This document shows positions 3,991-29,197 of a stretch of 64,000 nt of DNA, piece by piece (the stretch's first letter is position 1; each line of letters starts with the position of its first letter). The position numbers were made by a program, and so were the translations under genes. This stretch comes from Ectocarpus siliculosus. Lineage: Eukaryota; Sar; Phaeophyceae; Ectocarpales; Ectocarpaceae. The notes beneath the pieces were generated by a model. It did not search any database. It was not told the DNA's origin and saw only the letters and a program-made list of their open reading frames with translations. The DNA is taken from the NCBI GenBank assembly GCA_000310025.1, contig FN649726.1, forward strand, positions 919,295 to 983,294, in the 5' to 3' direction.

Positions 3991-4185
3991 TGTAATGACC
4001 GGGGATTCGAACAGACCTATTATTAAGGAATAATAAAAACACACACAGAAAGACTACCCATTCGAGATATATATCACAGCAGTCATTATGTTCCCCCGGT
4101 CCAGCCTGTTGGGGGGGTTCATTCAGGACATGTCCCCTGACCCCCAGGATTGTACCGCCTCCCTCGGCGTGCTTCCTGACCAACA
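3991..4185 (-). repeat. Probable solo LTR, about 195 bp
   Basis: Read on the minus strand the segment begins TGTTGGTCAGG and ends GGTCATTACA, giving TG...CA ends. It carries an AT-rich TATA-like run (ATATATATC) and a T-rich stretch with TTTATTATTCC, as in LTR U3/R regions. About 55 bp of it recur in the opposite orientation at about 20461-20516, so it is a repeat in this genome. I see no adjacent coding region and no clear target duplication, so it would be an old solo LTR. It could also be the end of some other repeat. Confidence 0.5.
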
Positions 4186-5470: not shown

Positions 5471-5474
5471 GTAC
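5471..5474 (+). repeat. Target site duplication GTAC (left)
   Basis: GTAC lies directly before the first base of the 5' LTR and again directly after the 3' LTR (20096-20099). The length of 4 bp suits a Ty3-type integrase. Confidence 0.85.
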
Positions 5475-5742
5475 TGTTACAGGATTCAGATTTGTAGACG
5501 TAACATAGAAGAGCTTGGTTCCTTCTAGAAGGCGCGGAGAGATGTAACTCTCCGCGGAAGGATAAAAAGCAGGGGACAGGATCTAGTAGCCCCTGCTTGT
5601 GCGGAGGATCCTGTGCCCCTTGGTGTCATTCCTACCGATACCCAAGGCAACAGCTACTGCTGCTGCTGTTCTACAAGAGTAACAACAAGTGAGTTCTTCT
5701 TCACGGGTCAAACAGACTTCATCACGCGTGCATACCGCTACA
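5475..5742 (+). repeat. 5' LTR of the NADAR-bearing element
   Basis: 268 bp, starting TGTTAC and ending CTACA. It contains a 12-bp palindrome CCTTCTAGAAGG (5521-5532), directly followed by a 9-bp-stem hairpin CGCGGAGAG/CTCTCCGCG (5533-5556) and a TATA-like GATAAAAAG (5561-5569). This looks like a compact U3 promoter. The 3' LTR has all three. Confidence 0.95.
5521..5569 (+). promoter_or_regulatory. LTR promoter: palindrome, hairpin and TATA-like box
   Basis: The palindrome CCTTCTAGAAGG contains TTCTAGAA, the inverted pair of nTTCn/nGAAn units that forms the core of a heat-shock element. It abuts a perfect 9-bp stem with a 6-base loop, then GATAAAAAG about 5 bp further on. Both LTRs keep all of it unchanged. 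A promoter role is inferred from position and conservation; heat control is only a possibility, because functional elements usually need three units. Confidence 0.45.
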
Positions 5743-5744
5743 CT

Positions 5745-5756
5745 TGGCGTTGTCGG
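5745..5756 (+). other. Primer binding site candidate
   Basis: Two bases after the 5' LTR the sequence reads TGGCGTTGTCGG. TGG is expected where the CCA end of a tRNA primer anneals. I cannot name the tRNA. The second element in the window has a similar TGGCGTCAGCGG three bases after its LTR. Confidence 0.6.
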
Positions 5757-5880
5757 CTTATTCGTACGGTGTTGTCTGGCTTGGTTGTGTCTTGGCGCGG
5801 GTTGGTGCTTTTTTAGGCTGCTGCTGCAGTTTTTTGCGCTTTCGTCCAAACCACAGCTTAGCTTTGCCTCGCTTATCGGT

Positions 5881-8800
5881 ATGTCTCAATCTAGCGTCGG
5901 TTCATCGGACTCCGCTTCGGCGAGCCCTGAGCATTCTGAACGTTCGCGTTCGCCGGTGTCACCGCCTCGCGTAGCGACCTTCGGGTCCCCGGCAGCTGGT
6001 CGTCAGGCCACACAGCTGCTGCTGTCTTCGGACGGTGCTCGTGCCGCTGACCCTGTTGCCGATGCCGCTCGTTTGTCAGAGCTTCGCGCTCAACGCATTC
6101 GGGAGAGGTTCGCCTCGCCGGCTTCGGTCGACGCTAACCCCGTGGGTGCTGTCCTCAAACCGCCAGCACCCACACCTGGAACTTCGGTTTCTGCCTCTGT
6201 GTCTTTGGGTGTACAACAGCAGTCCGTCTCGACGACTCAACAGCAGTCCGCTCGACGGCTGCTGGTGATGAGCTTTCTGAATTCCCGCGTGAACCACATG
6301 TCGACTCGAATTTTCCTCTCGCCCCATCCACCGTTGAGCACCCTGCTCTTGGGACCGACATCGGTTTCGACCATGTTTCTGGCCCTGTAGTACCACGCTT
6401 GTCCAGTCGCTCGGCTTCTCGCAGCACGTTGCAGTTCGACTATACAGTGCCGGCGATTCCCCCTTTTTCTTCTCGTAGCGATCGTGTACAAGCAGCGGCT
6501 CTCGCTCAACGGCTTCGTGACCGTCGTGCATCTGCTCCATCCAGTGACATCACCGCTTGCAGATTCCGCCGCATCACCACCCACTGTTCCAGTAGTTTCG
6601 ACTACACGGGCGATTTCGATTGCCTCTGGTACACTCCCCACAGTAGCTTCGTCTACCCCAGCTCTTTCGGTTGATTCTACTGCATTTGATCCCGTGGTTT
6701 CGCCCACACAGGCCATTTCGTTTGCCTCCGATGCTTTAGCTTCAGTAGTTTCGACTACAGGTGCAGTTTCGGCTGCTAACGTGCCTGTCCCTGCGGTCTC
6801 GACTGCTGTAGGTGTGTTTGCCTCCATCCCTTTAGCTCCGCCGCTACCAACAGTTTCGACTGTTCGCGGTGCTGCTGCCTTAGCCGCCCCACCTTTGCGT
6901 ACCGTTTCGACGCTGCGTACTGCTGACCTACCGGCAGCTCTCGTACGCCCAGACGCTGAAGAGGGTCGAATGCCAGAGCGTTGAAGCCACGATCCGACAA
7001 CGACGCCTACTGTTCGCGGGAGCACTGGCAAGGCAGCCGGACGGGCGACTCCCGAAACGACTGATGCTCGGCGAGCTGGCGGGGGGGGAGAAGCCACGTA
7101 GGGGGGGACAGGAACAGAACTGGCCGAAGTGTGTGCTTGACGACCTGAAGGCCTTCGGGGCCGACCACGGATCTACGAAAACCGACCCAAGTTGTCTCGG
7201 AATTCCCGTACCGAAAGACACGGCACCGAAGTCAAGGTGGACGGAAGCCGCGAAGGTGGAGGGGGGAGTACCCTGGCATGCGGCGGTGCTGCAGGGAGCT
7301 GAGAGGTTGATGACCTCCTGGCACGAGAAGGAAGAAGAGGCCAGCCGACAACGAGCGCTCAAACGAAACCACAAGCCAACAACCAATGGGGCGGGAGGGG
7401 GGCAGGAGACGGACGAGACGGCAAGGGAAGAAAGCAAACGAGAAGAGACGGACCGAGTGGCACGACACGTGCCGGATTGAATTTCTTTTCGCCAATTCCC
7501 CCCCCCCCAACGCTGCACCATTGCACCAACCCCCCAGTAGTAGTGATTTCGTACCATTACAATGTATCGCTGGTTGGTGGCCATGTTTGCGTGTTTGCTT
7601 GTTCGTTAGTGGTCTCTCCACCGTGTGCCTTTTTCTGCCTCATAATTCCTGTTATTTTTCGGCCTGGTCCCTCTTTGTCCTCGCCCTTTTTTTCATTTTT
7701 TTCATTTTTTCATTTTATTTTCATTTTTTTTCTCTTCTCCCTACGGGTTTCATTTTTATTTTTTCTCCCTTTTTTTCTCTTTGGCCCTTTTTTTCTCTCC
7801 TTTTTTTCTCCCCTTTGGCTCTCTTTTTTTCCCCCTTTTTCTGTGCCAGATGGACTTGTCTCTGCTTGCGTTGTGAAGTACCAAGATTGAACCAAGGGAG
7901 TGTGCCTCTTTCTCTCCGGCCCATGATAGATAGTGACTGCTAATCTCAGTTGATACCCCGCATAGCGTGAAGAGGGAGCGGAGGATCCCAGAATATCTGT
8001 CGTTGATTTCTATTGACTTGCGGACCCCTCGGGGCCAGTTTATTTGAGTGTACCTTTTTAGGGTAAGTTAACCTGTGACCACGGGAATCGACCGCGTCGA
8101 GTGTTGGATCAGTACGGACATACGAAGGTACTGGGTAGAGAGAAGATCGGAACGGTTTTTAATGTGAAGACAACAACAACAACAACAACAACTGCTGTGA
8201 CGTCTGCCCCCCCACATGCCTATCATGGTCCCACTACTGGTGCACCTGTCTCTGCGGTTTCGACTGCTGCACGTGTACTTTTGCCCATTCCATTACCTGT
8301 CTCTGCGGTTTCGACTGCTGCACGTGTACTTTTGCCCATTCCATTAGCTCCGCCCCTGCAAACAGTTTCGACTGCTGGCGATGCTATTATTCCTGCAGCT
8401 CCGCCTCTTCGCACCGTTTCGACCCTGCGTACAGTGTCGTCTGCCCCTTTCCCCGCTCACACTACTTCCACACAGAACCCTGTGTCAGCGGCTTCGGCTG
8501 CTGTAAACACCGCTGTTTCTATGCCAGTAGATACACCTCTGCTCGCATTTTCCACAGATTCACGTGTTCACACGGCGGGTTTCGATCCTACCGTTTCGAC
8601 CGACTCTGCCATGCTAGCTCCTGCTTCGGCGTCCCTAGCTGCGACCTCGGTTGTTTCAGCAGTACCCTCTGCCCCTACCCCACCCCTTTACCCTTACGCC
8701 GTGCCCCCACCCCCCCCCATGCTTTCCTCTTCGCATGAACGTGCTGCTACGGCTGATGCTTTGCATCGTCTCGAAATCGCAGAGCGCTATAATCGCCATC

Positions 8801-8955
8801 TGCACGGCCTTCTTAGCACCATGGTGACCACGACTCCGGGCCCCAAGCACGAGCCGACATCTTCAGCTCGGCTTTCGACTCCCGAGCTTCGGGATTCCAC
8901 CACCGGTGGCGGAACAAGGTCTGCAGTCACCGGCCGGCCGGCCGAGCCTGTCTAG
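5881..8955 (+). other. Gag-side leader of the NADAR-bearing element, low complexity
   Basis: An open stretch from 5881 (MSQSSVGSSDSASASPEHS) and later stretches to 8955 encode Ser/Ala/Pro/Thr-rich protein with many VST repeats. A block of the type APPLxTVST...PPLRTVSTLRT occurs twice, near 6830-6930 and 8345-8440, so the leader contains an internal duplication. Between them (about 7000-8100) lie non-coding-looking sequence and a long T/C tract (7630-7850). A 51-bp unit is repeated in tandem at 8245-8346 and an (AAC)n run lies at 8170-8191. The relation to canonical Gag matrix is unknown, and the region looks interrupted. Confidence 0.6.
8245..8346 (+). repeat. 51-bp tandem duplication, two copies
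   Basis: Two identical 51-bp units (8245-8295 and 8296-8346), in frame, each encoding 17 residues. The exact identity points to a recent event, probably slippage. Confidence 0.9.
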
Positions 8956-11524
8956 ATGGTCCTACCCCCCTCGGCTTCGGCCACCACCGCTGCTTTGGCG
9001 GCACCCTCGGCTTCGGCCACCACCGCTGCTTCGGCGGCGCCCTCGGCTTCGGCCGCCACCCCTGCTTCGGCAGTACCCCCGGCTTCGGCCACGGCTTCGG
9101 CCGCGGCTGCAACTTCCGGACTTGGCCACGGAAGTGGCCATCGCGTTGCCGGCGGTCGTCACCATTCAGGAGGCGGTGGATGTGGCTAACGCCTCCCGTC
9201 CGGATCTTCGGGATCTGGCCGGCCGTTTCCTCGCTGGGATGCGGACGGCCAACGCCCGTGCCACTGCTCCGGTGGTGTACCCTGGCTGCAGCGGTCCGCC
9301 TTTAGAGGCTTCCTATGTGTTCCAGCAGCCGGCGCCGGGTCGTGTCCAGCAGGCGCAACCGAGTCGGGAGAGTGGTCCTGGTAGCTCGGGCGAGGAGTCG
9401 GGCTGGAGCTCGGCCGGAGCATCGCGTCGACCCCCGGCGCCTTCGTCCTCTTCGGTGGGTGGTAGCCGGGAGAGAAAGGTGGCCAAGCGTGGCGGGGATG
9501 GCGCTCGTGGCTCCAAGAACAAGAGCAAGACCGGGTCAGGCTCGGACACCAGCTTGCCCCGCAAGCCAGGTCGTCAAAGGCAAGTAGTTCCGTCCCTCGT
9601 GGACGCGACTTCGGATGCTCGTTTCTTTTTGCGTGATGATTTTGACCTTCCGGCTTCGGCCCCCCCCGTTTCTTCGGAAACTCGTGATGCGTTTTCGAAC
9701 ATGCCACAGGCTTCGGCCCCCCCCGTTTCTTCGGAAACTGTTGCACCTCCTGTTTTTTCTACCGCTGATTATGCTGTAGGCTCAGGAATCGCACACCACC
9801 CCGGGTTCTCAAACCCCACCCCCCCTTCGACTTTTGTGCCCGTACAAGATGTTCACCATGTTGTACCGTCTTGGGATCGTGTTCCGCGTGCTGCTCCTTC
9901 GGTTGCAGCTGCTGCACCCCCTGTCGTTTCGGATGATAGTGTCTTTCCACTTTCTTCCAACATTGCACATGCTCGTCAAGCCACAGTAGATGCGGCTGCT
10001 TCGGCAGTTCGCAAGGCTCACGTAGTTACTGTCCAACGGGCGTACATCACTCTGAACTTGAAAAAAGTTGGAAATGTCGCTACCATGCCCTTCCCTGCAA
10101 CTTTGTTGCCTGGGGACGGCTACCAACAGCTCATCCGCACAACACGAACGGCCTTGTCCGACATATTGTTGCTGTGTGATGACCAAAGCGAAGGGTTGGA
10201 CAGTACTGATTACGTGCCTGGATGGGAACGGCCTCTCGAAAAGAAATCTTCGGGTGCGATCACCCCTGACAAGCCCTCTACTGCCGATCTTGTCCTTTCC
10301 ATCGCTGATTACTTTCAGCAGGTGAAGAGAAGCTTGGACGGCGGCGCCACCGGACCAGAAGCTTTTCAGTTGCTGTTGCGTCATCTTGCGGAGCAATTTG
10401 ATGTCGTCGACCGTCAAGGGTCTTTTTTGAGGCTACAACAATTTGGAGTAGCAGATGGTACTTCTTTCGCGGATTACCTTCGTGCTTTTCGCTTGTTGGT
10501 TTCGTCTGTGACTGGCTCTGAGCGTACTTTGGCCCCTAGTGTGTCCATGGTTCTAGAAATAGTGCGGCATTCGGTCTGCAAGCAATTTCCGAGTTTGTCT
10601 CCGATTTTGTACCCGGGTGCTCTGGCCACGGCCGTCACTCCCTTTGCGTCGATTGCGGATATGTGGGAGGCGTTCGCGCCTCTAGCGACAAATAAAACCC
10701 CGGTTATCGGCGGTTCATCTTATTTTTCGTTGTCTTCGACGCGTGGCTCCTCGCAGCCTCGGCGGTCCCAACACCGCGCCCCCGCGCCTTCGGGCCAGTG
10801 GGCACCAGGTTCCGCTCAGAACCCTGTAGTTTTGCCGGTACAATCGCACGACGCTGACCCTTTCACACGCAACTATAATTCTTGGCCTGCTTCGCAAGAC
10901 GATTGGTCTGATGTATACGCTCTCACTTCTAGTTTTCGTAACACGGAGGATCCTTTTTTGTGGACTCCTTTGTTGACACAAGAGGCTCGCTCGCAAGCCT
11001 TCCGCGAAAACAGGAATCGCTGTCTGAACTGCTCGGGTGAAGACCATTCCATGAAGCAATGCGTTGCACCGTTCACGAATTCTAGTGGGTTGTTGAACCC
11101 CGAGTTGGGTCTCCTCAATGACGATTCTGCTGCTTTTAGACGTTGGCAAGGCCGTATGCGGTCTTTTCGACGAAAAAGTGCGGACAACCGCCAAAACAAT
11201 CAGGGTAGACGCCACCAGCGCTCTTCCTCTTCGTCCTCTCAGCGTCGAAACCACGCTGGGAATCGCCGTTCCGACGGTGGTAGTTCCCCTCACACTCATC
11301 AGACACAATCGCACAACAGTGGGTATGCCCCAGGGAATTCCGCGGGTAACTCTCACCCTCAGCAACACCCTTCGATCAACACCAACCACACTGGTGCTCT
11401 GTCCCTCTATCAACCACAAACACATGCACACACCGGTCCTTCGTCTGGCATCATGGTTTCGACCCATCACAATGCCCGTCAACCTGGCAACTTCCAAAAT
11501 GGTGGTCGTTCTCGCAGCGGATGA
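8906..11524 (+). CDS. Gag-like protein with CCHC zinc knuckle
   Basis: An 872-codon ORF; the first part may not be the true start, since it reads through a 36-bp tandem repeat (about 8965-9090) rich in Pro/Arg in this frame. It continues with Ser-rich and Lys/Arg-rich linkers, then a more complex segment (about 10000-10720) likely to be the capsid-like part, and a zinc knuckle CLNCSGEDHSMKQC (C-x2-C-x4-H-x4-C) near 11024-11065. The tail is rich in Arg, Ser, His and Asn. Gag proteins of this family pack the RNA in cytoplasmic particles. The knuckle directly upstream of pol makes the role clear although the capsid fold itself cannot be verified by reading. Confidence 0.85.
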   Translation: MAEQGLQSPAGRPSLSRWSYPPRLRPPPLLWRHPRLRPPPLLRRRPRLRPPPLLRQYPRLRPRLRPRLQLPDLATEVAIALPAVVTIQEAVDVANASRPDLRDLAGRFLAGMRTANARATAPVVYPGCSGPPLEASYVFQQPAPGRVQQAQPSRESGPGSSGEESGWSSAGASRRPPAPSSSSVGGSRERKVAKRGGDGARGSKNKSKTGSGSDTSLPRKPGRQRQVVPSLVDATSDARFFLRDDFDLPASAPPVSSETRDAFSNMPQASAPPVSSETVAPPVFSTADYAVGSGIAHHPGFSNPTPPSTFVPVQDVHHVVPSWDRVPRAAPSVAAAAPPVVSDDSVFPLSSNIAHARQATVDAAASAVRKAHVVTVQRAYITLNLKKVGNVATMPFPATLLPGDGYQQLIRTTRTALSDILLLCDDQSEGLDSTDYVPGWERPLEKKSSGAITPDKPSTADLVLSIADYFQQVKRSLDGGATGPEAFQLLLRHLAEQFDVVDRQGSFLRLQQFGVADGTSFADYLRAFRLLVSSVTGSERTLAPSVSMVLEIVRHSVCKQFPSLSPILYPGALATAVTPFASIADMWEAFAPLATNKTPVIGGSSYFSLSSTRGSSQPRRSQHRAPAPSGQWAPGSAQNPVVLPVQSHDADPFTRNYNSWPASQDDWSDVYALTSSFRNTEDPFLWTPLLTQEARSQAFRENRNRCLNCSGEDHSMKQCVAPFTNSSGLLNPELGLLNDDSAAFRRWQGRMRSFRRKSADNRQNNQGRRHQRSSSSSSQRRNHAGNRRSDGGSSPHTHQTQSHNSGYAPGNSAGNSHPQQHPSINTNHTGALSLYQPQTHAHTGPSSGIMVSTHHNARQPGNFQNGGRSRSG
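8965..9090 (+). repeat. 36-bp tandem repeat in gag leader
   Basis: About three and a half units of a 36-bp GC-rich sequence containing GGCTTCGGCCACCACC. The copies differ slightly. The related word GGCTTCGGCC recurs near 9653 and 9710. Confidence 0.8.
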
Positions 11525-11608
11525 CTCATCGGTGGCGGTTCGCCTACTTCCCCCGGACCGCCTTCAGCATCTTCGGGGACCTCGTCTCGTTCTTCACAAG
11601 ACGCTCGT

Positions 11609-12580
11609 GTGTCACGCTCTGTTGCCCCTAATACTTCGGTTTTATGCAACAACGACAACACTTCGGTATCTGTCGCACCGTCACACACTGTTGCCTCTAG
11701 CACTTCGGTCCTACGCAACGATAACCACACTTCGGTGAATGTTATCCCTTCTGGTACTTCGGTGCCGCACAATAACAACCATACTTCGGTATCCGTTGTT
11801 TCTCCCAGTGTCGATCAGGTCGGTATCCAAACATACGCTCTCGTCCCACCTTCTACATCGCACTTATCATTTGCCACCTCTGCGTCTCTGCCTCTTCGGA
11901 CTGGCGCTCCGTCAGAAACTAACCAGTCTGGCGCGAGTACTGTCTTGAGGTGCGGGAACAGAACCGTAGGACCTTCGGGGCCATCGAGTACCGCTCGTTT
12001 GTCGGGCACCGCTCGTTCGCTCCCCCCGTCGTCTGCAGATCAGACCGGCCGTAGCCATGCGCTTTGGACGATTGAAGAGGAATCGCCTGAATTGGTTACC
12101 TCGGGTGAATCTTCGGATACGCTCAACTCGTCTGTGCTCGCTTCCGTTGAGGGTTCGCCCTCGATTGTTGCACCGGTAGCTAACTTGACTGGTTCCGACC
12201 GGCAAGTTACAGGGTCAAATTCGCCTGGCTTCGAATCGCGTTGTTCTCTTGGTCCTGACCGCCGAACATCATCAGATTCCGCCACGAGATATTTCGACCA
12301 TGGATCGTCTTCGGACGCTCCATCCCTTCCGGCGCACGCTCGCCCCACGGCGCCCGATACCAGGCCGCCGCGACCGACGTCGACAGTGTTGACACCACCG
12401 CTTCGGGAGGACCCTCCCGGAGTGACCTCCGAACAGCCGGCGGTCTCGCGTACCTTGTCACGGAGGAATGGCCAGGAGCACCACGCCCGGTTTGGTTCTT
12501 TAACCGACCCGGCCTTGGCGGCCGTTCCTAGCGAAAGCAACCTGTTGAATGACACCTTACGAGGTGTTCTTCAGGTTTAG
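11609..12580 (+). CDS. Ser/Thr-rich ORF between gag and pol
   Basis: A 323-codon ORF rich in Ser, Thr, Pro and Asn. Its first part has repeats of the type TSVxxN/SHT; the rest resembles a disordered linker. I recognise no domain. It lies between gag and pol and has no counterpart in simple Ty3 elements. It may be a spacer of a Gag-Pol polyprotein or a separate protein. Confidence 0.6.
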   Translation: MSRSVAPNTSVLCNNDNTSVSVAPSHTVASSTSVLRNDNHTSVNVIPSGTSVPHNNNHTSVSVVSPSVDQVGIQTYALVPPSTSHLSFATSASLPLRTGAPSETNQSGASTVLRCGNRTVGPSGPSSTARLSGTARSLPPSSADQTGRSHALWTIEEESPELVTSGESSDTLNSSVLASVEGSPSIVAPVANLTGSDRQVTGSNSPGFESRCSLGPDRRTSSDSATRYFDHGSSSDAPSLPAHARPTAPDTRPPRPTSTVLTPPLREDPPGVTSEQPAVSRTLSRRNGQEHHARFGSLTDPALAAVPSESNLLNDTLRGVLQV

Positions 12581-12582
12581 AA

Positions 12583-15500
12583 TTGGGGCGCACCCAGCGT
12601 GATGTCGCTGGCCCAATTATTGCGAACAATTCGGCTCCCGTCGATTCTTCGCCGGTCTCTGACATACCCGAGACCGTCCCCATGGACGTTCACGCCGTAA
12701 ATTACAATGCGGGAGTTTCGGCTGCCTCCGCTTCGACTACATCAGCTTCGGCTGCAACCTCAGCTTCGGCTGACCGCACTCCAGGTGTTTCGACTCCTGC
12801 AGTTCCCGCTGTCTTTGACCCATCTAATGAGTATTGTACTCCTGAGATGGTCTTCTTTTGGCAGCCCCCCTCTCCCTTTTCCCAATGGACCCCGTCGACT
12901 TTTGTGGTCGATGGAGTGGTATACTCGTGTGCTGAGCAGTTTTTCGCTGCGGAAAAAGCTCGTCTTTTCGAAGACCATTGCGCTTTACAAAACATCATGC
13001 GCGTGTCCGATCTTGCCTTACACAAGAAGTTTGGCCGCGGTGTCCGTGGTTTCGACCCATCTCTTTGGGAACACGAGCGCGAAAATATTGTGCTCACTGG
13101 CTCTTACGCAAAATTTAGTCAAAACTCCGAGTTGCGCGAGCATCTTCTCGGATCTGGCGACAAAATCCTTGCCGAAGCTAGTCCCTACGACCGTATTTGG
13201 GGCATTGGCCTTCAAATCGATGATCCTGACGCTCTATCCACCTCTCGATGGCGTGGCCTCAATTTGTTGGGCAACGCCCTTCAACGAGTACGCAGTCTTT
13301 TGCGATGCAATGCCCCGCCGCCCGAGCGCAGCTCTCGTTTGCTGCCCCCCAACGACCACGTTTCGACGTCGTCTCAAGATAACGCGGTCTATGAAATTAG
13401 CCCTTTTACACACCAGCGTCTTCGGATGGCCTCAACCCCTCCGTCGACTGAACGATTCGCGTCGTTTTCACATTACGCTGCGAATGTTCCATCGGATCAT
13501 GACACCGCTGTTTGGGCCGTGTCTTCCGGGTGCCCTCAGCCATCCTCTTCCTCTTCTTTGCTTCCTGAGCAAGGTCCGGATTTGGTTGATGGTGTTTTTA
13601 CCATCGGTGATGACTCTTTCACCACCCAAATCCTCACTCACAGTGGTTCAGCTTCTGTTCAGTTTGGATGTGTTGCTCTTTTAGACACGGGTTCCCCGCA
13701 GTCTTTTATTAGTGCATCTGCGTGGGAATCCATGAAAGCCGCTTCGGCCGCTTCGTCGTTGTCTGAGAAACAAACCCAACCTCGCTGTTGGGGAGGTTTC
13801 GGCGAATCTGCTCCGCTTCAAACTTCGACTATTGTCCGTTTGAGCGTGCAGTTTCTTCGCAAGCGCCTTCCTACTTCCTCTCTCGCTGTTTGGGCGTACG
13901 TTGTTCCCGATGGTGTTATGCATCATGACGTGCTCCTTGGGAGAGACAGTTGGATGCAGTTTAGCGACCGCTCTTACCGCACTTTGCGTGCGAAACGCCC
14001 TGGTGACCGTCTTTTTGGTGAGCTTACCCTGGCTCAGCATAGCAGTTGCGGTGCCACCGCATTTGCTCACGATTTGTCTTCCACGGATGGTAACTACCAA
14101 CTTCGCTATGCTGGGAAACATTCCGTCCAACTTCACCCTGAACATAGCCTTGTTCCGGTTAATTTGGTACGCAGCGATGGCTCTCCAGCCCTCGTAGGTA
14201 ACTATCTCGTGGATATGCTTCCACAATGTGCTATGTTTTCTTCCGAGGAACATTTTGTGCAAAATGGTTGCCAAAAACTCCCGCTCGCGGGTATCTCTTC
14301 ACTCGAACCAGGCGACATTCTGGGTACAGCTTCGGCTCCCCTTCTTCGCGTGCCTCTCAGTGCTGTGTCTCGCCAAAGTTTGAGCGATGGTCTTCAATCT
14401 GCGGCTCAAGATCCCACCATTGCTTCGGGCAACTGGGTTCCGGGTCCTGTTTCGACAGGTGGCATTGATTCATCTGCCGAACGTCGCATTGATGACCCCT
14501 TCGTGTATAATTTGCATGAGCGACCCACGCCGTCGCCACGCGGCAAAGAGGACCCTGGTTCTGCCAGTGCTTCTCTTTCGTCGCCTCCGCCTGCTCTTCT
14601 CGAGCGGTTGACGTCTGAACAACGTCAGAGTTTTTCCCGCGTGTGGGATAAGCTCCCCTGCCATCTCCGTGAGATTTCTTTTGATCTCCATGGTCCGGGT
14701 TGGACTCCGGATGTCATCACTCAGCTTGGTAACGTCCTGTGCAACTATCATGATGTCTTCTCGAGTTCCCCCACCGACTTTGGATCTTGTTCGCTTTTTC
14801 CTTTCAAGCTTACAGTTCCTCCGGGCAGTGCACCCGTCACGTCTCGTCCATACCGCGTTAACCCCCCGGTGGCGAAACAAGTTGACGCGATCCTTGATCA
14901 ATATCTTGCGGCTGGTCTGATCCAACATTCGACCTCGCCCTACTCGAGTCCTTTGGTAGTCATACCGAAGAAATCTGGTGGTGTTCGCATCACTGTCAAC
15001 TATCGCAAGCTCAACAAGCTTTGTGCTTTGAGCCAGCTTCCGATTCCTCGAGTTGATGATACTTTGGACAAGTTGTTGAAAGGGCGAATCTATTCCCTTT
15101 TCGACATGAAGTCTTCGTTCCACCAAATCACGGTTCACCGTGATACAATCCCTTTCACGGCATTCGTGACGTCTTCCGGGCTTTTTGAGTGGTTGAAGAT
15201 GCCTCAAGGCAGTTCTGCTGCCCCTGGGTGGTTTTGCAAGGTGGTCAACGAAGTCATCAAAAATCTCCACGGTGTTTCATCGTACTTGGATGATTTGATC
15301 GTTTTCGACGACAACCCTGCTTCTCATGTTGATACCATGCGCGCTCTGTTTGAACGCTTGCGCACCCACAACTTGAAACTCACCCCACCGAAGGCCACCA
15401 TTGGCGCTACCGAAGCGGATTTCCTCGGCCACACCATCTCCCCTGACGGTGTTCGGCCTAACGGGGCCAAGGTTGCGGCCCTCACCAAAATGCCCATGCC

Positions 15501-18500
15501 AAAGGATGTTAAACAACTTCGCTCTCTTCTCGGCGGCCTCAGCTACTACCGCAAGTTCCTTCCCAACATGGCTACGCGAATTCGACCTCTGACCACTCTT
15601 CTCAAGAAGAAGGCGACGTTTGCCTTCACCCCTGCCATGGAGCAAGCTGTTCGCGTCCTGCTGTCTGAGTTGGCCAATCCTCCTGTCTTGGTTTATCCAG
15701 ACTGGGATGCCGTTACGGACGGCTCGCGACCTTTTCGCCTCTACTGTGATGCTAGTCGCGATGGGTTCGGCGGGACTCTCGAACAAGAACAGCCGGGTGG
15801 CTCCATCCGGCCCATCGTTTTCATCAGCCGAGCTACTTTGGACTCCGAACGTCATTGGACTCCCCTCGACCTCGAGGCGGGTAGCATCGTATGGTGCATC
15901 AAACGACTTCGCGGTTATTTGTGGGGCACGAAATTTCGCATTTTTACCGACCACAAATCTCTTGAGCATTTTGCTAAGGTGGGGGAGAACAATGCCCGCG
16001 TTCAGCGTTGGCTTGAATTTCTTACCGCCTACAATTACACTCTCGAGTACCGCAAGGGTTCCGCAAATGGCAACGCTGATTTCCTCTCTCGCCTTCCGAT
16101 CGATGCGGCGGAATGTGACCGATCTGGTCGCAGCCGCTTGACACCGGATGACGATGAGGAGAGCGTATTCTTCATCCGTTCTTGTGGCCTTACGCCTTCT
16201 GGCCATCGCGCCGTGGGTGTTGGCTTGGGTGGGCTCGTCCCCACTTCCCCGACTTCGGTCTTGGGTGGGCTGGCCCCCTCTACAGATGATTTTGTCGACT
16301 TCCGTCGGCATGGTCCACGTCTCTCGCCGTCAGGCCTTTCGTCTCCGCCTGGCGTCTGGAACATCGCACCCTGGCCGTCTAACAACTCCCGCGGGTTGTC
16401 TCCTTCGCTACGACGCCTGTGTGGCAGGGCCCTCGATTGGTCTGGCTCCTTACATTCTTCGGTGGAGGACATTTTGGCTCTCGAACCCGAGTCTTCGCCG
16501 GCCGTCTCGCCGACTGCAGCATCACGACGGACTCTCGACCCTACTCAACTGATTTCCACGCGAACTCGCCGTCGGACGGCGGTTGTGGCAGGCACGCCCC
16601 TCCCGCCCGTGGATTATGGTTTCTCCGAGGACCCGCCTGCTCCTACTCGGATTTCCGCTTCGCCCCGATCGTTTCGACGTTCCCCGCCCGCACAATCAGC
16701 ATCGACGGCGCCCCCCGTTTTGACCAGGTTGGTTTCGGCTCCTGGTGCTGACACTTCGATCCCAGACCTTCATACGCCTCTGGCTCGTGGAAGGGATCTT
16801 GCGTCTTCGACGCACCCTGCAACTTCGGTTGCTCCTGCCCAGCAGTCTTCTGCTGCCCCCGATTCTTCGGAATCTTCGACGCGTTCGGTTTCGACCACTC
16901 GTACGCCTTCGTCTTCTGTTTCCGCTGCTACTCTGCCTTCGGGTGGATTGCAGCCGGAGCCTCAGGAATCGGCCCCCTCTTCTATCGAGGCGGCTTTTCA
17001 TTCCTCGGCAGATTTAGCCTTCCGGGCGTCTGTCGAACGTTTCTCGCATGCTGATTGGGCTCGCGAGCAACGTAACGAACCTGTTTGTGATGCAGCTATT
17101 CGTTTCACCCTTCTGGGTCGGCCTTCGGCTCTCCCTTCGGATTTCCTGGATCATCTTCCGTCCGCTCGTCGACCTCCTCTGTCGGAGATTCGTGACCTGT
17201 CTAACAAAGGCCGGTTACTGGTTGACGATGATGGTTTGGTCTTGCTTGTTCGCAAGCAAACAGTGCCCCCGTCGTCTACGACCACACGTCCTGGCGGGCG
17301 TGCTGCTCGCCTTCTCAACGACGAACCCATTCGGATTTATGTTCCCATGCTCATGCGTCCGTGGATCATGCAAGCCTGTCACGCTGATGCATCCTGCCAC
17401 CTCGGTGCCGCTCGCAGGCTTAGCATGCTGGAACGTTTTTATTGGTGGGTTGGCATGAGTGTTTGCACGAAGTGGTGGGTAAGGCATTGTTTGCGATGCC
17501 AAGCTCGCAAGTCATCTCGTCAAACGCCTCGATGGCCTACTTTGTGCCTTCCGCTGCCTTCGGGCCCTGGCGTGTCGGTGAGCGTCGATTATTTCGGTCC
17601 CCTCCCATTGACACCGCGCGGAAACACATATATTCTGCTTTTCACTGATCGTTTCAGCCGCCGTGCTGACATGTACGCGGTTACGGCTGCAGAACTCACC
17701 GCCGAAGGCATCGCTGACGTACTTGTCAATCGATATATCCCTTTATGGGGTTGCCCTTTGAGTCTCTTGTCTGATAATGGCTCTCAGCTTTGTTCTAAAC
17801 TGTCGCAGGCTGTATACGCCCGTCTGGCTATCCGCAAAGTGGCTACCAGCTCTTACCATCCCAACGGCAATGGGGGTGTGGAGCGCGTAAATCACACTAT
17901 GGCTCAGATGTTGGCTATGGTCGTCAATGAGAGGCAAGATGATTGGGACATTCATCTGCCGCACGTTGAGTTTGCCTACAACAATTCGGTTAGTGCCGCT
18001 ACTGGTTTGGCGCCCAACGAGGTGCATATGAACCGACTGCCACGCATGCCGATGACGGTTTTTGAGCATCCATATGCTCGAGGCCACCAAAGCTTGCATC
18101 GCGATCAACTTGAGTATTGCGATCTTGCTGCTGATCGCCAACGTCGTTCTTACGATTTAGTTCGCGAACAGCACAACCTGTCCGTTTCGAGGATTGAGCG
18201 GCGTAACTCCGCTCTATCGGATGCTTTGCGCAAGGTCCCCTCATACTTCGTCGGTGGATGGGTTTGGGTGTACAACACCGAATCTACCATTCGCCAAGGT
18301 GTTCGTTCAGGCACGGATGACAAGGTCCTCAAGGCTAAGTTGTCTTTCCTTTGGACTGGTCCGTTCAAGATCTTGGCCGTGGGTCCGTGTCCTGACGCTC
18401 CCGACGGTTGTCCTCTGGCTTCCAAGTTACTGTATTTGGATCTTCCATCGGATCTGCCGGGTCCGGACTCGAAAAACCGTGTGTCAGTTGCGCGTTGCAA

Positions 18501-19266
18501 GCCTTGCGCTAATCCGCATGACACTGAAGACTTGCCTCGGTTCCTGCCTGCCGGCTTTACACCGTATGTGCTAAACTCCTATGCGAATACATCTCCTCCC
18601 TACCATGTTACGGAAGACGACGTGTCGACTCCGGTCGAACGTCTCGAGGTTGACCGCATTTGTGGCCATCAGTCTGTTCGTGGCCGTGGTGGCACCATCG
18701 CTGTTTTATACCAAACGCATTGGAAAGGTCTTCTTCGTCCTTCTTGGGAACGTGAGATGGACCTCCAGCATTCCAAGCCCCACATTCTCCGGTACTGGAC
18801 GGGTTCACCTGATCAACATCGCCAAACGAATCGTCGCTATCGGGCGATGCGTGTTGGTGCGGCCACCCGCGAGATGGCGCGCGCTAAAGGGGAGCGAGCT
18901 TTGCCTTCGGGTTATTCGCTCGTCTCTCGTTCAACTTGGGACCGCCGCTTCGCCAATACTCCACTACCTGCAGGCGCCTTCTTCTGGTACAAAGCTCGCG
19001 ATGGATTCTGGTGGTTGGGCAAGATTACTGGACCGCCTCTACCGTCCGACTTCTACGTCGTCCGCTTCTTGGACGATCCTGGCCCTGTCAAGCTCGCCCT
19101 TCCTGATGTTCGCTACTCCACCGCTGAAACCGCCGTCTCCGGATCCTGGTGCCTCCAAGTTCACAGCGGAAGTGCCCTTTTTAAGGGGATCCTTCGCAAC
19201 GTCGACATGTCGCGTGGTGACCCCGGGACTGATTCGTCGCCTGATAACGTTGCGCGCCCCCATTAA
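12583..19266 (+). CDS. pol: Pol polyprotein: NADAR, protease, RT, RNase H, integrase, chromo, Tudor-like
   Basis: 2227 codons in one open frame; the true entry point is unclear because the frame is open upstream and such elements often use recoding. Parts by residue: NADAR 83-240; aspartic protease with DTG at 368-370; RT about 742-960 with the first catalytic Asp at 841 (FDMKSSF) and YLDD at 901-904; RNase H about 1050-1170 (YCDAS at 1054-1058); integrase zinc finger H1600, H1606, C1636, C1639; integrase core D1669, D1731, E1767 (D-E spacing 35); chromodomain 2017-2073 (EVDRI...HWKG...WE); Tudor-like module 2129-2195 (FFWYKARDGFWWLGKI, then YVVRFLDD). Integrase after RNase H gives Ty3 order. 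Every catalytic motif I looked for is present. The host-like modules at both ends are the surprise. Confidence 0.95.
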   Translation: MGRTQRDVAGPIIANNSAPVDSSPVSDIPETVPMDVHAVNYNAGVSAASASTTSASAATSASADRTPGVSTPAVPAVFDPSNEYCTPEMVFFWQPPSPFSQWTPSTFVVDGVVYSCAEQFFAAEKARLFEDHCALQNIMRVSDLALHKKFGRGVRGFDPSLWEHERENIVLTGSYAKFSQNSELREHLLGSGDKILAEASPYDRIWGIGLQIDDPDALSTSRWRGLNLLGNALQRVRSLLRCNAPPPERSSRLLPPNDHVSTSSQDNAVYEISPFTHQRLRMASTPPSTERFASFSHYAANVPSDHDTAVWAVSSGCPQPSSSSSLLPEQGPDLVDGVFTIGDDSFTTQILTHSGSASVQFGCVALLDTGSPQSFISASAWESMKAASAASSLSEKQTQPRCWGGFGESAPLQTSTIVRLSVQFLRKRLPTSSLAVWAYVVPDGVMHHDVLLGRDSWMQFSDRSYRTLRAKRPGDRLFGELTLAQHSSCGATAFAHDLSSTDGNYQLRYAGKHSVQLHPEHSLVPVNLVRSDGSPALVGNYLVDMLPQCAMFSSEEHFVQNGCQKLPLAGISSLEPGDILGTASAPLLRVPLSAVSRQSLSDGLQSAAQDPTIASGNWVPGPVSTGGIDSSAERRIDDPFVYNLHERPTPSPRGKEDPGSASASLSSPPPALLERLTSEQRQSFSRVWDKLPCHLREISFDLHGPGWTPDVITQLGNVLCNYHDVFSSSPTDFGSCSLFPFKLTVPPGSAPVTSRPYRVNPPVAKQVDAILDQYLAAGLIQHSTSPYSSPLVVIPKKSGGVRITVNYRKLNKLCALSQLPIPRVDDTLDKLLKGRIYSLFDMKSSFHQITVHRDTIPFTAFVTSSGLFEWLKMPQGSSAAPGWFCKVVNEVIKNLHGVSSYLDDLIVFDDNPASHVDTMRALFERLRTHNLKLTPPKATIGATEADFLGHTISPDGVRPNGAKVAALTKMPMPKDVKQLRSLLGGLSYYRKFLPNMATRIRPLTTLLKKKATFAFTPAMEQAVRVLLSELANPPVLVYPDWDAVTDGSRPFRLYCDASRDGFGGTLEQEQPGGSIRPIVFISRATLDSERHWTPLDLEAGSIVWCIKRLRGYLWGTKFRIFTDHKSLEHFAKVGENNARVQRWLEFLTAYNYTLEYRKGSANGNADFLSRLPIDAAECDRSGRSRLTPDDDEESVFFIRSCGLTPSGHRAVGVGLGGLVPTSPTSVLGGLAPSTDDFVDFRRHGPRLSPSGLSSPPGVWNIAPWPSNNSRGLSPSLRRLCGRALDWSGSLHSSVEDILALEPESSPAVSPTAASRRTLDPTQLISTRTRRRTAVVAGTPLPPVDYGFSEDPPAPTRISASPRSFRRSPPAQSASTAPPVLTRLVSAPGADTSIPDLHTPLARGRDLASSTHPATSVAPAQQSSAAPDSSESSTRSVSTTRTPSSSVSAATLPSGGLQPEPQESAPSSIEAAFHSSADLAFRASVERFSHADWAREQRNEPVCDAAIRFTLLGRPSALPSDFLDHLPSARRPPLSEIRDLSNKGRLLVDDDGLVLLVRKQTVPPSSTTTRPGGRAARLLNDEPIRIYVPMLMRPWIMQACHADASCHLGAARRLSMLERFYWWVGMSVCTKWWVRHCLRCQARKSSRQTPRWPTLCLPLPSGPGVSVSVDYFGPLPLTPRGNTYILLFTDRFSRRADMYAVTAAELTAEGIADVLVNRYIPLWGCPLSLLSDNGSQLCSKLSQAVYARLAIRKVATSSYHPNGNGGVERVNHTMAQMLAMVVNERQDDWDIHLPHVEFAYNNSVSAATGLAPNEVHMNRLPRMPMTVFEHPYARGHQSLHRDQLEYCDLAADRQRRSYDLVREQHNLSVSRIERRNSALSDALRKVPSYFVGGWVWVYNTESTIRQGVRSGTDDKVLKAKLSFLWTGPFKILAVGPCPDAPDGCPLASKLLYLDLPSDLPGPDSKNRVSVARCKPCANPHDTEDLPRFLPAGFTPYVLNSYANTSPPYHVTEDDVSTPVERLEVDRICGHQSVRGRGGTIAVLYQTHWKGLLRPSWEREMDLQHSKPHILRYWTGSPDQHRQTNRRYRAMRVGAATREMARAKGERALPSGYSLVSRSTWDRRFANTPLPAGAFFWYKARDGFWWLGKITGPPLPSDFYVVRFLDDPGPVKLALPDVRYSTAETAVSGSWCLQVHSGSALFKGILRNVDMSRGDPGTDSSPDNVARPH
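12829..13302 (+). other. NADAR (YbiA-like, DUF1768) domain inside pol
   Basis: Residues 83-240 of pol match the NADAR family along the whole fold: an FFW/PFSQW start, VDGVVYSCAEQFFAAEKA, HKKFGRGVRGFD, ENIVLTGSYAKFSQN, LREHLLGSGDKILAEA, SPYDRIWGIGL and WRGLNLLGNAL. These blocks, with the conserved Glu of the AEQ motif, the GR-V and the EASPYDxIWGIG signature, are what I know of YbiA relatives. Established: YbiA cleaves N-glycosidic bonds of early riboflavin intermediates, and other NADAR proteins remove ADP-ribose from guanine. Which of these applies here, if either, is unknown. The length (about 158 residues) is typical of the full domain. Confidence 0.9.
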
Positions 19267-19827
19267 GACGACATGCTAGTTGTCTTGGCTTTCTGTTGTT
19301 TTCAGCGTTGTTTGGGTTGCTTTTTAGCCTTGGTTGGTTTTCGCTTTCTCCTTGCTTTATTTTGTGCCTTTAGCGTTTGGTCACGACCTGTAGGTGTTTC
19401 GCGCCCATTGTTGCCCCTTCTACACTGCCGTGGCGACTGCGTGAATGGCGTATCTGATCGTTTTCTTACGATACCGGTCTTGTTGTGGTTCCTACAGTGA
19501 TCCTTTCTTTTTTGTCGTTATGACGACCTCTGCTTTTCTTTTCTGTTTTTCTTCCCTTCTTTGTGTTTTCCTTTCTTTGGTTCCGATCTTCTTCCGGTCG
19601 TCGTAGGCTTTTCTTAGCCCCGTCAGTTCCTTCCTGTCTGTGTCTTGTTGTCGTTTTAGAAGTCAAACGATGGTCTTGCGACTCATCGAGTGAGAGGTGT
19701 GGAAGGGTGAATTGTGCTGTTTTGGAGCTCCACATCCTCGATACTTTCATTTAGAGACTCGACAATTGCTTGTCAAGACTCCGGGGTTTTACAGTATCTG
19801 CGTATGAGAACCTCCAGGGTGGGCTAG
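19267..19827 (+). other. 3' non-coding tail and polypurine-like tract of the NADAR-bearing element
   Basis: About 560 bp between the pol stop and the 3' LTR, T-rich, without a supported ORF. Just before the LTR, CCAGGGTGGGCTAG is the best candidate for a polypurine tract, though it is a weak one. Confidence 0.5.
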
Positions 19828-20095
19828 TGTTATTGGATTCAGATGTGTAGACGGAACATAGAAGAGCTTGGTTCCTTCTAGAAGGCGCGGAGAGATGTAA
19901 CTCTCCGCGGAAGGATAAAAAGCAGGGGACAGGATCTAGTAGCCCCTGCTTGTGCAGAGGATCCTGTGCCCCTTGGTGTCATTCCTACCGATACCCAAGG
20001 CAACAGCTACTGCTGCTGCTGTTCTACAAGAGTAACGACAAGTGAGTTCTTCTTCACGGGTCAACCAGACTTCATCACGCGTGCATACCACTACA
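19828..20095 (+). repeat. 3' LTR of the NADAR-bearing element
   Basis: 268 bp from TGTTAT to CTACA, followed by the GTAC duplication. It keeps the CCTTCTAGAAGG palindrome, the hairpin (19886-19909) and the TATA-like box of the 5' copy. About 3% divergence between the two LTRs is visible. Confidence 0.95.
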
Positions 20096-20211
20096 GTACT
20101 GCTGTAGACTTCGTTCCATCTTCCATGATTTTTGCAATAATATTATTATTCCTATATGATTAATAAACCAGCAAGCTGGCAATAGACACTGCGCCGTGTC
20201 CCCTGTGAAGG

Positions 20212-20460: not shown

Positions 20461-20516
20461 TGGGTATATCTCGAATGGGTAGTCTTTCTGTGTGTGTTTT
20501 TATTATTCCTTAATAT
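20461..20516 (+). repeat. Partial copy of the solo-LTR repeat
   Basis: About 50-55 bp (TATATCTCGAATGGGTAGTC...CCTTAATA) match the segment 4021-4075 in inverted orientation. The match stops two bases short of the left LTR of the second element, so that insertion may have cut the repeat. Confidence 0.7.
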
Positions 20517-20518
20517 TG

Positions 20519-20777
20519 TGAGACGGTTGTCTCCAGGTTCGCGTGTGAGCAAGTTCCCTTTCGGATGCGTGGTGTGGATACACACCAGTACAACCTCTGG
20601 TGGAAAGGCTGACGAGTACGGATAGTTGTGTTGTGAGTCAAGGGGGGAACAACCTTGTGTTGAAGCAAGGTTCAGCATCCATCCGACACTGACTCTATCT
20701 GTGGCAACACCCCGAAGGTAGATCTCCGACAGGTCATCTCACGTCACAATCTACTACAGTCTGAGGTGGCATTCACA
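20519..20777 (-). repeat. 3' LTR of the second element
   Basis: 259 bp; on the minus strand it starts TGTGAATGCC and ends ...CCGTCTCA. It differs from the partner LTR at about 11 positions including one indel. Confidence 0.93.
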
Positions 20778-20790
20778 TCACCCCCCTATC
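20778..20790 (-). other. Polypurine tract of the second element
   Basis: Read on the minus strand, GATAGGGGGGTGA sits directly against the TGTGAATG start of the 3' LTR. This is where plus-strand priming occurs in this family, and it fixes the LTR border. Confidence 0.8.
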
Positions 20791-21100
20791 TTCAATCACG
20801 GGGCCTGAATCCGGATTGAAAGATACAAGATTGACATAAATACTCCAGAGTGTATGAAATTGTGAAGTACTGATGAAAAACACGAAGTAAATGGCTTGGG
20901 CCGTAACGCACGACAACTGCCATCATTCAACGAATGCTTTTTGTTTTGTAGTCATAAAATTTGGAACGTGTCACCAAAATATCTCATCCGAGCATCGACC
21001 GTACATAGTGCAGTCACAACCACAGCTTGCACGAGAGCAATTCAGGAATTTTGGCAACTATTCCCGTACGACGAACGAATAACTACACAGATGACGAAAT

Positions 21101-21755
21101 GTGTACGGAACATGTCAGTCACTTCAGTCCGCCTCGGCGCTGTAGGTAACATGTGATCTACCGTACGAACGAACGACGGGTGTACAGAAAAAATATCACT
21201 TCGGTGCGCGTCTTGCCCCGATAGTGTAAAAAAATGTACAAGTAGTACCTTGAGACAACGCCGTGAACTATTTGTAGTTGCACGTAACGAACATCCAGCA
21301 ACTAAAAATGATTTGGCATTGCACCTGTGAAAAACGATTGCTTGCAAGGCTTAAAGTTCACAAGTGTCGAATGGCATATGACGTGGGTCGACCCGCTGGG
21401 AAAACGTTGCTCAAACGATATGCAGCGGCAACAACAAACGAACATGTTTGCACAGCTCATGGAGAGCTAACGATACAACCTTCTCATGCGATTACGCAAA
21501 TGAGAGGTGCTGCATAGACGAACGACGACGAATGAATGGTGATTATGAGTACAGCACACGATGTGCTGCAGCATGGATTTGACGCAGTAGTGGGACGAAG
21601 GTCTGGTCCTCTTGTGCTTCCTCTTGCACGCATCTACTCTTTCGCAGTGTACGACACGCGAGAAACGATGTGCGGACAACGAAAGGTGTACGGAACATGT
21701 CACTGCAGTCAGCCTCAATGCTGTAGGCAACATGTGATCTACCGTACGGACGAAC
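21101..21755 (-). repeat. Direct repeat pair, about 70 bp, in the tail of the second element
   Basis: The segments 21101-21174 and 21686-21755 share GTGTACGGAACATGTCA, CTGTAGG(T/C)AACATG and TGATCTACCGTACG in the same order and orientation, about 515 bp apart. They lie in the long non-coding tail, which is also rich in ACGAACGA words. Confidence 0.75.
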
Positions 21756-24700
21756 GGCACGGGGCAAAAATCCACCGCACGAAACGACTAGACGAAATCG
21801 GGCATGAACAAAACCGTGTGAGTGAACAATGCAAAAGTGGATGGATCCAGAAGTCGATTATCAATTGCAATTCCCCCAAACTGCAAGTGAGACGATATCA
21901 CCCCCCAAATTAATGACGGAGTGGACGAGAATCGACGAACTTCCGATCCCGCATATTCGCTCACATAAAGTATCAACTGACCCCATACGACGCACTCGTA
22001 TCTCAAGGACAGTGACACAACGGCAATGTACGCTTCACACCACGCACGATTGTCTATAAACGGACGCACGTTCCAATCATGAATAATTGAAAACGCTGAC
22101 GGAGCTCGTACGAGGTACTATTTCGTACGGCATTCAAACAGAGAAATATATACAAAAATATTAATAAATCACATAACGAACGGGCAACGCCATGCCTTAA
22201 AAATGACGTGCGCTAGCAGCATGTCCAACGAAACGAAGACACGCAACCAGACCTTGGTTCGCGGAGGGCGAATCTCGACGCGAACTAGGCTCCACCTGCC
22301 GACTCCCACGAGGTGTTGAATCCAACGTGGGCGTATCCACCAACAACGACAATGTCCGGCCGGACTGCGAAGGAACGTTGGGGACGGCGAGCACTACGAA
22401 ACGATCGTGCTGGACAACGAACAATAACATATATGTGCATATAAAAAAACAATAATAATAAACGAAAACGTGGTCCTTGGAAAATAAACAAAACACGAAA
22501 CGAATAAGGCAAAACACAGCACGAGACACGATACGAAGCAGCCAGGACGCTACTTCCTGGGAGAATGATCAAAGGCGTGCGGATTATCACGAAGAACGCA
22601 CGCTCGATATGAACGGATCATCTCATGACACTGTGGTACTTCTTTGAAGTGCTTCCAACATCCAAGAGTCGCAGGACGGTCTTTGAGGAGGAAATAATAT
22701 TGGAAGTTGTGGAGAGACGGTTTTCCTGCTCCACGTTTAAATTTATTTATCCCCTCGACGACGTACGATCCATTTTTTACGGTAAACACGGTACCATCCA
22801 AATCTGGAATTGGAAGTGTTTGTCCCTAAAACATCTCACCCAATTCAGTAAAATCGGGAACAGAATGACGTTGAAAAGCATAGTACTTTTTCATACGACC
22901 CAAGTGTACTGACGTTTCCGCGAGTTCCCGTCTTTGCAAACACGATATATGACGGGTGACACTTTTGAACGAACGGTGAATGGGCCATGCCAAGGACTGA
23001 TCAGCTTGGGATTAGGGGCATCAATAACGGTATGGGGACGACGTACGAGAACTTGTTCCCCAGGAGTGAACTGCGGTACGGATAATTTTTCGTTCGAGTC
23101 TGCTTGCTTGTCAGTTCACTTTTTCAAATTACGACGAGCGATCCACGGTACGACCTGAATATTCCATCCGCGAAGCAGAGCTATCATGAGACGGTAGACC
23201 AAGAATGACATCCACGGGAAGCAAAGCCTGGCGACCGAACATCAGATAATGAGGATTTTCCTCAAGAGTTTGGTTGTACGCGGTGTTATGGGCGAGTTGC
23301 GCAAACGGTAAAAGCTCAGCCCAATTATCAAACCGAACGTTTGCATACATTGGGAGCATGTCATGCATTGTGCTGTGCACGCGCTCTAATACAGAGTTAC
23401 CTTGCGGCCGATACGCGGACGTCCGAATGTTTTTTTGAAACCAAACACGGCCTGCAACTCTATAACCAACTCATTCTCGAGCTCAGTGCCCTGATCATTG
23501 TGTAACGTTTCAGGGGGAGAGAAAACGGAAAAGACACGCTCTACGAGAGCCTGTGCAATTGTTGTTGCTTTTTTATCACGAATAGCAATCAACACGAGAA
23601 AACGGGTCAGGTGATCGATGACCGACAAGACGTACTTGCAACCCTGTGATACGGAATTATATTCAACGAGGTCGATCGCGACACACTGAAACGGACGGGT
23701 AACGGGACGGTGACCCACAGGTAATAACGGTCGTCTGTGGGACGTTTTTCGGTGTTGGCACGACGAACAATGCTGGATGTGTTTGGACGCATCTCGAGAC
23801 ATGGTCGGCCACCAAAAACGATCTCTGAGTCTATCGTACGTGGCTTTGAACGCTAGATTACCCCCTGACGCAGGAGCATCATTACAAGAATCCAAAACTA
23901 ACGCACGCAAAACGGTGGGAACGACAAGTTGATCACGGAACGAACTGCGATTACGAAGATACCCTGGTAAATACGACCTGAAGAGCACGCCTTCATTCAA
24001 GAAGTAATTACTCATGGTGCCTTTATTTTCGCTAGACGGCAACGGTGCTGTTTGTGGTTTCTTGACGTAGTCGATATACGGACCGAACTCTTTGTACTGT
24101 TCTCTTCGCAATTTAGCGGGATCCAGCACAGGAAATAACGAGACAGCACTAGCGAACAGTTCATTGTCAATCTGGACAATATCAACATCGTTCAACGAAT
24201 CGGCAGAAATTTCGTAGTCACGAGGGCCAGGAGGATGGTACGGACGATCACTCGGCACATTCCTACAAATCGACGCCAGGGCCGGTTTGTGCGATACAGA
24301 TTCTGACTCAATTTCGCCAAATAAACGAGATAACGCATCGGGTACGACGTTTACTTTTCCCGCTACGTGTTTGACGGTAAAATCATAATTTTGAAGAGCG
24401 ATAGCCCAACGAGTGAGCATGTCGCTGGTGTCTTGCATAAAAAAAAGACGAGTCAACGCTTGATGATCAGTGATCACCGTAAAATGTTTCCCAAATAAGT
24501 ACGGTCGCCAATGCGAAATTGCAAGAACCACACCGCAACACTCTTTCATAGACGCAGAGTAAATGACGCTGTCCATGTTTGAATCCATTACTATAATACG
24601 CAATTATGTCAAGAGACTCTGGATCAGTCTTGGACGGCTGGGCAAGAAACGCGCCACACCCATGTTCGGATGCATCCACATGAACTACGAATTCCCGATC

Positions 24701-28866: not shown

Positions 28867-28937
28867 GGCAGTGACAAGGTAGTGCCACCAACGCACAAGG
28901 AACTCGACCAACACACGTAACGCCGCTGACGCCACTA

Positions 28938-29197
28938 TGAGAAGGTTGTCTCCAGGTTCGCGTGTGAGCAAGTTCCCTTTCGGATGTGTGGTGTGGATAC
29001 ACACCAGTACAACCTCTGGTGGAGAGGCTGACGAGTACGGATAGTTGTGTTGTGAGTCAAGGGGGGGAGCAACCTTGTGTTGAAGCAAGGTTCAGCATCC
29101 ATCCGACACTGACTCTATCTGTGGCAACACTCTGAAGGTAGATCTCCGACAGGTCATCTGACGTTTCAATCTGCTACAGTCTGAGGTGGCATTCACA
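28938..29197 (-). repeat. 5' LTR of the second element
   Basis: 260 bp, the same ends as the 3' copy. The primer-binding-like TGGCGTCAGCGG follows three bases downstream on the minus strand. Confidence 0.93.

Follow-up and report, generated by a model that had tools for sequence, protein, structure and literature searches.

A YbiA-type NADAR domain in the Pol of a nearly intact Ty3/Gypsy LTR retrotransposon from Ectocarpus siliculosus

In this study, 64,000 nucleotides of Ectocarpus siliculosus DNA (contig FN649726.1, positions 919,295–983,294; hereafter the window) were analyzed, and a Ty3-type LTR retrotransposon carrying a NADAR domain in its Pol was located at 5475–20095 on the plus strand. 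The element belongs to the NADAR-carrying Ty3/Gypsy LTR retrotransposons known from brown algae, and this copy is nearly intact. The fusion of NADAR to Gypsy pol is itself already known. The present analysis adds a nearly intact copy with low LTR divergence (K2P 0.03) in which most of the residues surrounding ADP-ribose were kept, including those at three positions studied for their part in the mechanism of C7 NADAR from E. coli; the supplementary alignment of PMC12477816 (Fig. S2) may show the same residue conservation. Since most pocket residues are kept in a nearly intact copy, an enzymatic role of the domain is likely, and the exact residues to mutate can be named.

Structure of the element and its published relatives

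The 5′ LTR (5475–5742) and the 3′ LTR (19828–20095), both on the plus strand, were 268 bp long and differed at 8 positions (K2P 0.0305). The LTR started with TGTTA and ended with CTACA, which gives the TG...CA ends of Ty3/Gypsy elements, and a 4-bp target-site duplication (GTAC) was present upstream at 5471–5474 and downstream at 20096–20099. A primer-site-like sequence, TGGCGTTGTCGG, started two bases past the 5′ LTR, and a polypurine-like sequence, AGGGTGGG, was found just upstream of the 3′ LTR. The interval of about 3 kb between the 5′ LTR and gag (5743–8827) contained a minus-strand ORF of 286 aa (6237–7097). A plus-strand open frame (8062–8952) was also observed there, and neither frame had a Pfam match.

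The gag open frame (8828–11521, plus strand) was 898 codons long from stop to stop and ended with TGA. It had no Pfam match; a zinc knuckle motif, CX2CX4HX4C, was present at 11021–11062 (plus strand). Past the TGA, the gag frame reopened into a Ser/Thr-rich stretch of 351 codons (11525–12577, plus strand), likewise without a Pfam match. In this one copy, the TGA followed by the open stretch is equally compatible with read-through, with an ORF of its own and with a gag that is broken. Because gag is closed by the TGA before the stretch leading into pol, this copy may lack full function.

The pol open frame (12553–19263, plus strand) was uninterrupted over 2237 codons from stop to stop. It was shifted by −1 from the gag frame, and the two frames overlapped by 25 nt (12553–12577). 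All of the following domains were on the plus strand. The NADAR (YbiA-family) domain, supported by PF08719, TIGR02464 and an AlphaFold2 model, occupied 12853–13305. The aspartic protease motif LLDTGSPQSFIS followed at 13678–13713, with LLDTGS at 13678; its Pfam match was weak (Asp_protease_2, E = 0.044), scoring 14.9 bits where the cut-off is 24.3. Reverse transcriptase (RT) was found at 14962–15438 (PF00078, E = 5.9e-26; YLDD at 15283), RNase H at 15625–16032 (PF17917, E = 7.8e-31; PF17919, E = 3.6e-22), and integrase, with its zinc-binding H2C2 region and catalytic core, at 17341–17862 (PF17921, E = 2.9e-11; PF00665, E = 1.9e-8). The order protease–RT–RNase H–integrase, with the protease identified by its motif and a weak Pfam match, was that of Ty3/Gypsy elements. 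The first-pass annotation of this DNA, made from the letters alone, had placed a full-length NADAR domain in frame ahead of the protease of an element retaining RT, RNase H and integrase motifs; the open pol frame, the LLDTGS position and the Pfam matches bore this out. A chromodomain-like stretch was present at 18646–18798 (PF00385, weak, 20.2 bits against a cut-off of 25.1).

The last 138 residues of Pol (18850–19263), beyond the chromodomain-like stretch, appeared Tudor-like by eye. Pfam and PDB sequence searches of this C-terminus returned nothing, and a single-sequence model had a pLDDT of 32. Therefore, a Tudor identity is not claimed.

The same annotation had supposed that no such retrotransposon was described. 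However, PMC12477816 (Genome Biol 2025;26:320) reports the NADAR fusion in Ectocarpus Gypsy elements, in one of four Gypsy lineages and in all families of that lineage. Of four papers among the literature matches listed (PMC12477816, PMC7922944, PMC9303266 and PMC9599419), PMC12477816 alone describes a NADAR in a retrotransposon. Compared by description only, the layout of the Gypsy-12_Ec32 lineage of Ectocarpus sp. 7 was the same as that of the present element to the extent that its weak chromodomain match allows; a C-terminal chromodomain is named for Gypsy-12_Ec32 (PMC12477816). An apparent NADAR is also reported in the same paper for a Tx1 LINE of Crassostrea gigas, which differs in being a non-LTR element, in carrying the domain in ORF1 rather than Pol, and in its divergent sequence.

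Identity, predicted structure and origin of the NADAR domain

PF08719 matched residues 91–241 of the pol ORF (read from 12583) with E = 1.3e-43; the score of 149.5 bits exceeded the cut-off of 35.1, so the search against Pfam NADAR proposed in the first-pass annotation gave a significant result. The profile was covered whole (1–163 of 163), which makes this a full-length match. TIGR02464 (NCBIfam), the YbiA-type riboflavin-intermediate N-glycosidase family, matched with 141 bits against a cut-off of 73.7. With a profile of 58 NADARs, which includes the element's own row, a single piece among 1556 stop-to-stop pieces of the window (at least 25 residues, six frames) was matched, namely the pol frame piece (E = 1.2e-58). 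The GC3 of the NADAR stretch was 0.51 and that of the remaining pol 0.45–0.57; the GC content of the window was 0.539, a value in keeping with Ectocarpus.

The three sequence blocks on which the domain had initially been recognized were all located in the pol frame: AEQFFAAEKA at 12931–12960, GRGVRGFD at 13033–13056, and EASPYDRIWGIG at 13174–13209. The E-x6-K block of the YbiA family was conserved as pol E118 and K125. Glu was found at the position of E125 in the Phytophthora nicotianae NADAR 8bau (pol E198, nt 13174), consistent with the YbiA family. Asp at this position marks the BC4488 family and His the phage gp30.3 family (PMC11543638, PMC11125620). The element thus differed from the DarT1-NADAR toxin-antitoxin systems: Glu stood in place of the BC4488-type Asp, and Pfam scans of the surrounding and other long frames (5, 6, and 8 queries; long frames only) detected no ADP-ribosyltransferase.

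The AlphaFold2 model of the domain, built on 58 sequences, had a mean pLDDT of 96.1. At E ≤ 0.001, the only PDB matches of the model were 8bau, an ADP-ribose complex (TM 0.89), and E. coli YbiA (PDB 2b3w; TM 0.77). YbiA belongs to the same family but is a free protein. The 189-residue PDB chain of 8bau was identical to the element at 40 of 113 aligned residues (35%).

The pocket was compared by using a phmmer alignment and the 13 residues named in PMC11543638; the numbering offset was checked, and all 13 letters of 8bau agreed. Eleven of the 13 residues around ADP-ribose were identical in the element: E43, K50, K75, G78, R79, V81, W89, R93, E125, D130, and W133 (8bau numbering). The remaining two were changed, Y84 to F and D86 to P, and D86 of 8bau touches the adenine-proximal ribose (PMC11543638). 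The first-pass identification of a NADAR fused to a Ty3-type pol was confirmed, and most of the ADP-ribose pocket was retained. With 11 of 13 pocket residues identical, the domain is probably catalytically competent, as judged from the alignment and the model.

According to PMC11543638, the E. coli C7 enzyme loses activity when the counterparts of K50 and E125 (the latter an Asp there) are mutated. At the E43 position, a change to Q inactivates the enzyme and E88A has only a minor effect in vitro; K115, at the K75 position, is dispensable for catalysis. All four positions (E43, K50, E125, and K75) are required for rescue from DarT1 (PMC11543638), and the element carried the 8bau residue at all four. 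Given the minor effect of E88A and the dispensable K115, not every conserved residue proves hydrolysis.

Across 57 other NADARs, 38 well-filled columns showed conservation of 90% or more, and the element kept the consensus at 36 of these. Identity within the seed peptides used for locus finding (PYDRIWGI etc.) partly reflects how the loci were found; outside these peptides, the consensus was kept at 19 of 20 such columns. In a leave-one-out comparison at the 80% level, the element kept 42 of 47 conserved sites and ranked 50 of 58, so it was more divergent than most rows. This conservation suggests past constraint on the lineage leading to this copy, which is distinct from a dN/dS estimate.

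NADAR matches were gathered from IMG/VR (24 loci), GTDB contigs (80 of 126 kept) and phages (40 listed of 703 records). No relative of the element was found in IMG/VR by RT and integrase queries. Identity to bacterial and phage YbiA-like proteins reached at most 55% (Planctomycetota), and 52% for a Pseudomonas phage, the best among the matches listed. In a tree of 59 rows, in which the partial 8bau was the sole eukaryotic NADAR, the element joined a Planctomycetota sequence with support 91/58, which is not enough to name a donor. The domain thus appears to have bacterial affinity among the non-eukaryotic sequences searched, in agreement with PMC12477816, where blastp of NADAR domains beyond Ectocarpus gave almost solely bacterial matches. 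PMC7922944 describes a stress-induced Ectocarpus host protein, Esi0017_0056, with a NADAR/DUF1768 domain at residues 132–291 and two close Ectocarpus relatives; the retrotransposon domain may be related to this protein, either as its descendant or as its source.

NADARs of animal RNA viruses, such as nidoviruses, resemble the element in another respect, since they tend to share one polyprotein with the polymerase (PMC9503650). However, that polymerase is an RNA-dependent RNA polymerase, and among the BFVD matches, which included replicase polyproteins, the 4 rows named polymerase or replicase were 19–28% identical.

Possible actions of the domain

Since the pocket is largely intact and the domain is part of Pol, removal of ADP-ribose from guanine is the most likely action. 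The proposal that the domain is made with Pol and frees guanines in RNA or cDNA of the element from ADP-ribose is held with a little less than even confidence and draws on sequence and the structural model. In such a mechanism, the domain would be made as part of Gag-Pol and packaged in the particle, where the protease would free it or it would stay joined to Pol. Acting on the RNA or cDNA, it would then cut ADP-ribosylated guanine at its N-glycosidic bond and so keep reverse transcription from being blocked. Either a host defence or incidental damage could be the source of the mark. NADARs are reported to reverse guanosine ADP-ribosylation on DNA (PMC11543638, PMC11125620) and on RNA, a reaction that the macrodomain and ARH enzymes assayed in PMC11833690 failed to carry out. 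In the results reported there, the activity of C7 NADAR on RNA far exceeded that of T4 NADAR and E. coli YbiA, and the present domain is YbiA-type. If the domain does remove guanine ADP-ribose, it would offer a way into the study of nucleic-acid ADP-ribosylation as a means of retrotransposon control in a eukaryote.

A narrower form of guanine de-ADP-ribosylation, raised already in the first-pass annotation, is counter-defence. Here the element's enzyme would undo a brown-algal defence that ADP-ribosylates guanines of reverse-transcribing elements, as a eukaryotic counterpart of DarT-NADAR, and would point to an undiscovered host ADP-ribosyltransferase. This is put forward as a rather doubtful extension. 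In a literature search combining ADP-ribosylation, LTR retrotransposons and restriction, the matches listed dealt neither with algae nor with ADP-ribosylation of retrotransposon nucleic acid.

The substrate could also be a metabolite. As an N-glycosidase, the domain might hydrolyze ribosides that are reactive (for instance, an intermediate of riboflavin) or a soluble alarm signal derived from ADP-ribose, and so protect or enable reverse transcription indirectly. The above-cut-off match to TIGR02464 and the bacterial and phage proteins as best matches are consistent with this, and soluble ADP-ribose derivatives are proposed for phage NADARs in PMC9503650. However, tested NADARs, including YbiA, do accept ADP-ribosylated guanine as a substrate in both DNA and RNA (PMC11125620, PMC11833690), and we are aware of no need for a Pol-joined metabolic enzyme in a retrotransposon. 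A metabolite substrate was judged unlikely.

In PMC12477816, the domain is suggested to take part in the processing of the element's RNA intermediate. It might, for example, act on NAD- or ADP-ribose-derived groups of that RNA which are distinct from guanine marks, for instance those at ends or branches. A precedent is the nematode NADAR protein SNA-3, which is needed for trans-splicing and is impaired by mutations of NADAR residues, but these mutations also reduce the protein level (PMC9303266). In addition, ADP-ribose at RNA phosphate ends was not removed by the NADARs tested in PMC11833690, and the bacterial NADARs tested in PMC13036486 are reported to process ADP-ribosylated uracil negligibly or not at all. 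Such processing has a low probability.

Binding of ADP-ribose-marked chromatin or particles, by which a non-catalytic domain would tether Pol, or persistence as a hitch-hiking relic is improbable: a pocket can bind its ligand without catalysis, and Ectocarpus Gypsy elements do bear C-terminal fused reader domains (chromodomain and Tudor; PMC12477816), but the residues at the C7-critical positions E43, K50, and E125 are the same as in 8bau, and every family of the lineage is reported to have the domain (PMC12477816).

Neighbouring elements in the window

A second Ty3-type element adjoined the first at 20519–29197 on the minus strand. It had LTR-like repeats of about 260 bp that were 96% identical, with gag, RT, RNase H and integrase distributed over separate frames, and it had no match to the NADAR profile. 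The whole NADAR-carrying element was flanked by perfect 51-bp inverted repeats at 4021–4071 and 20465–20515, with TA at each outer end. These repeats resemble the termini of a DNA transposon, about 1.9 kb long, that received the retrotransposon insertion.
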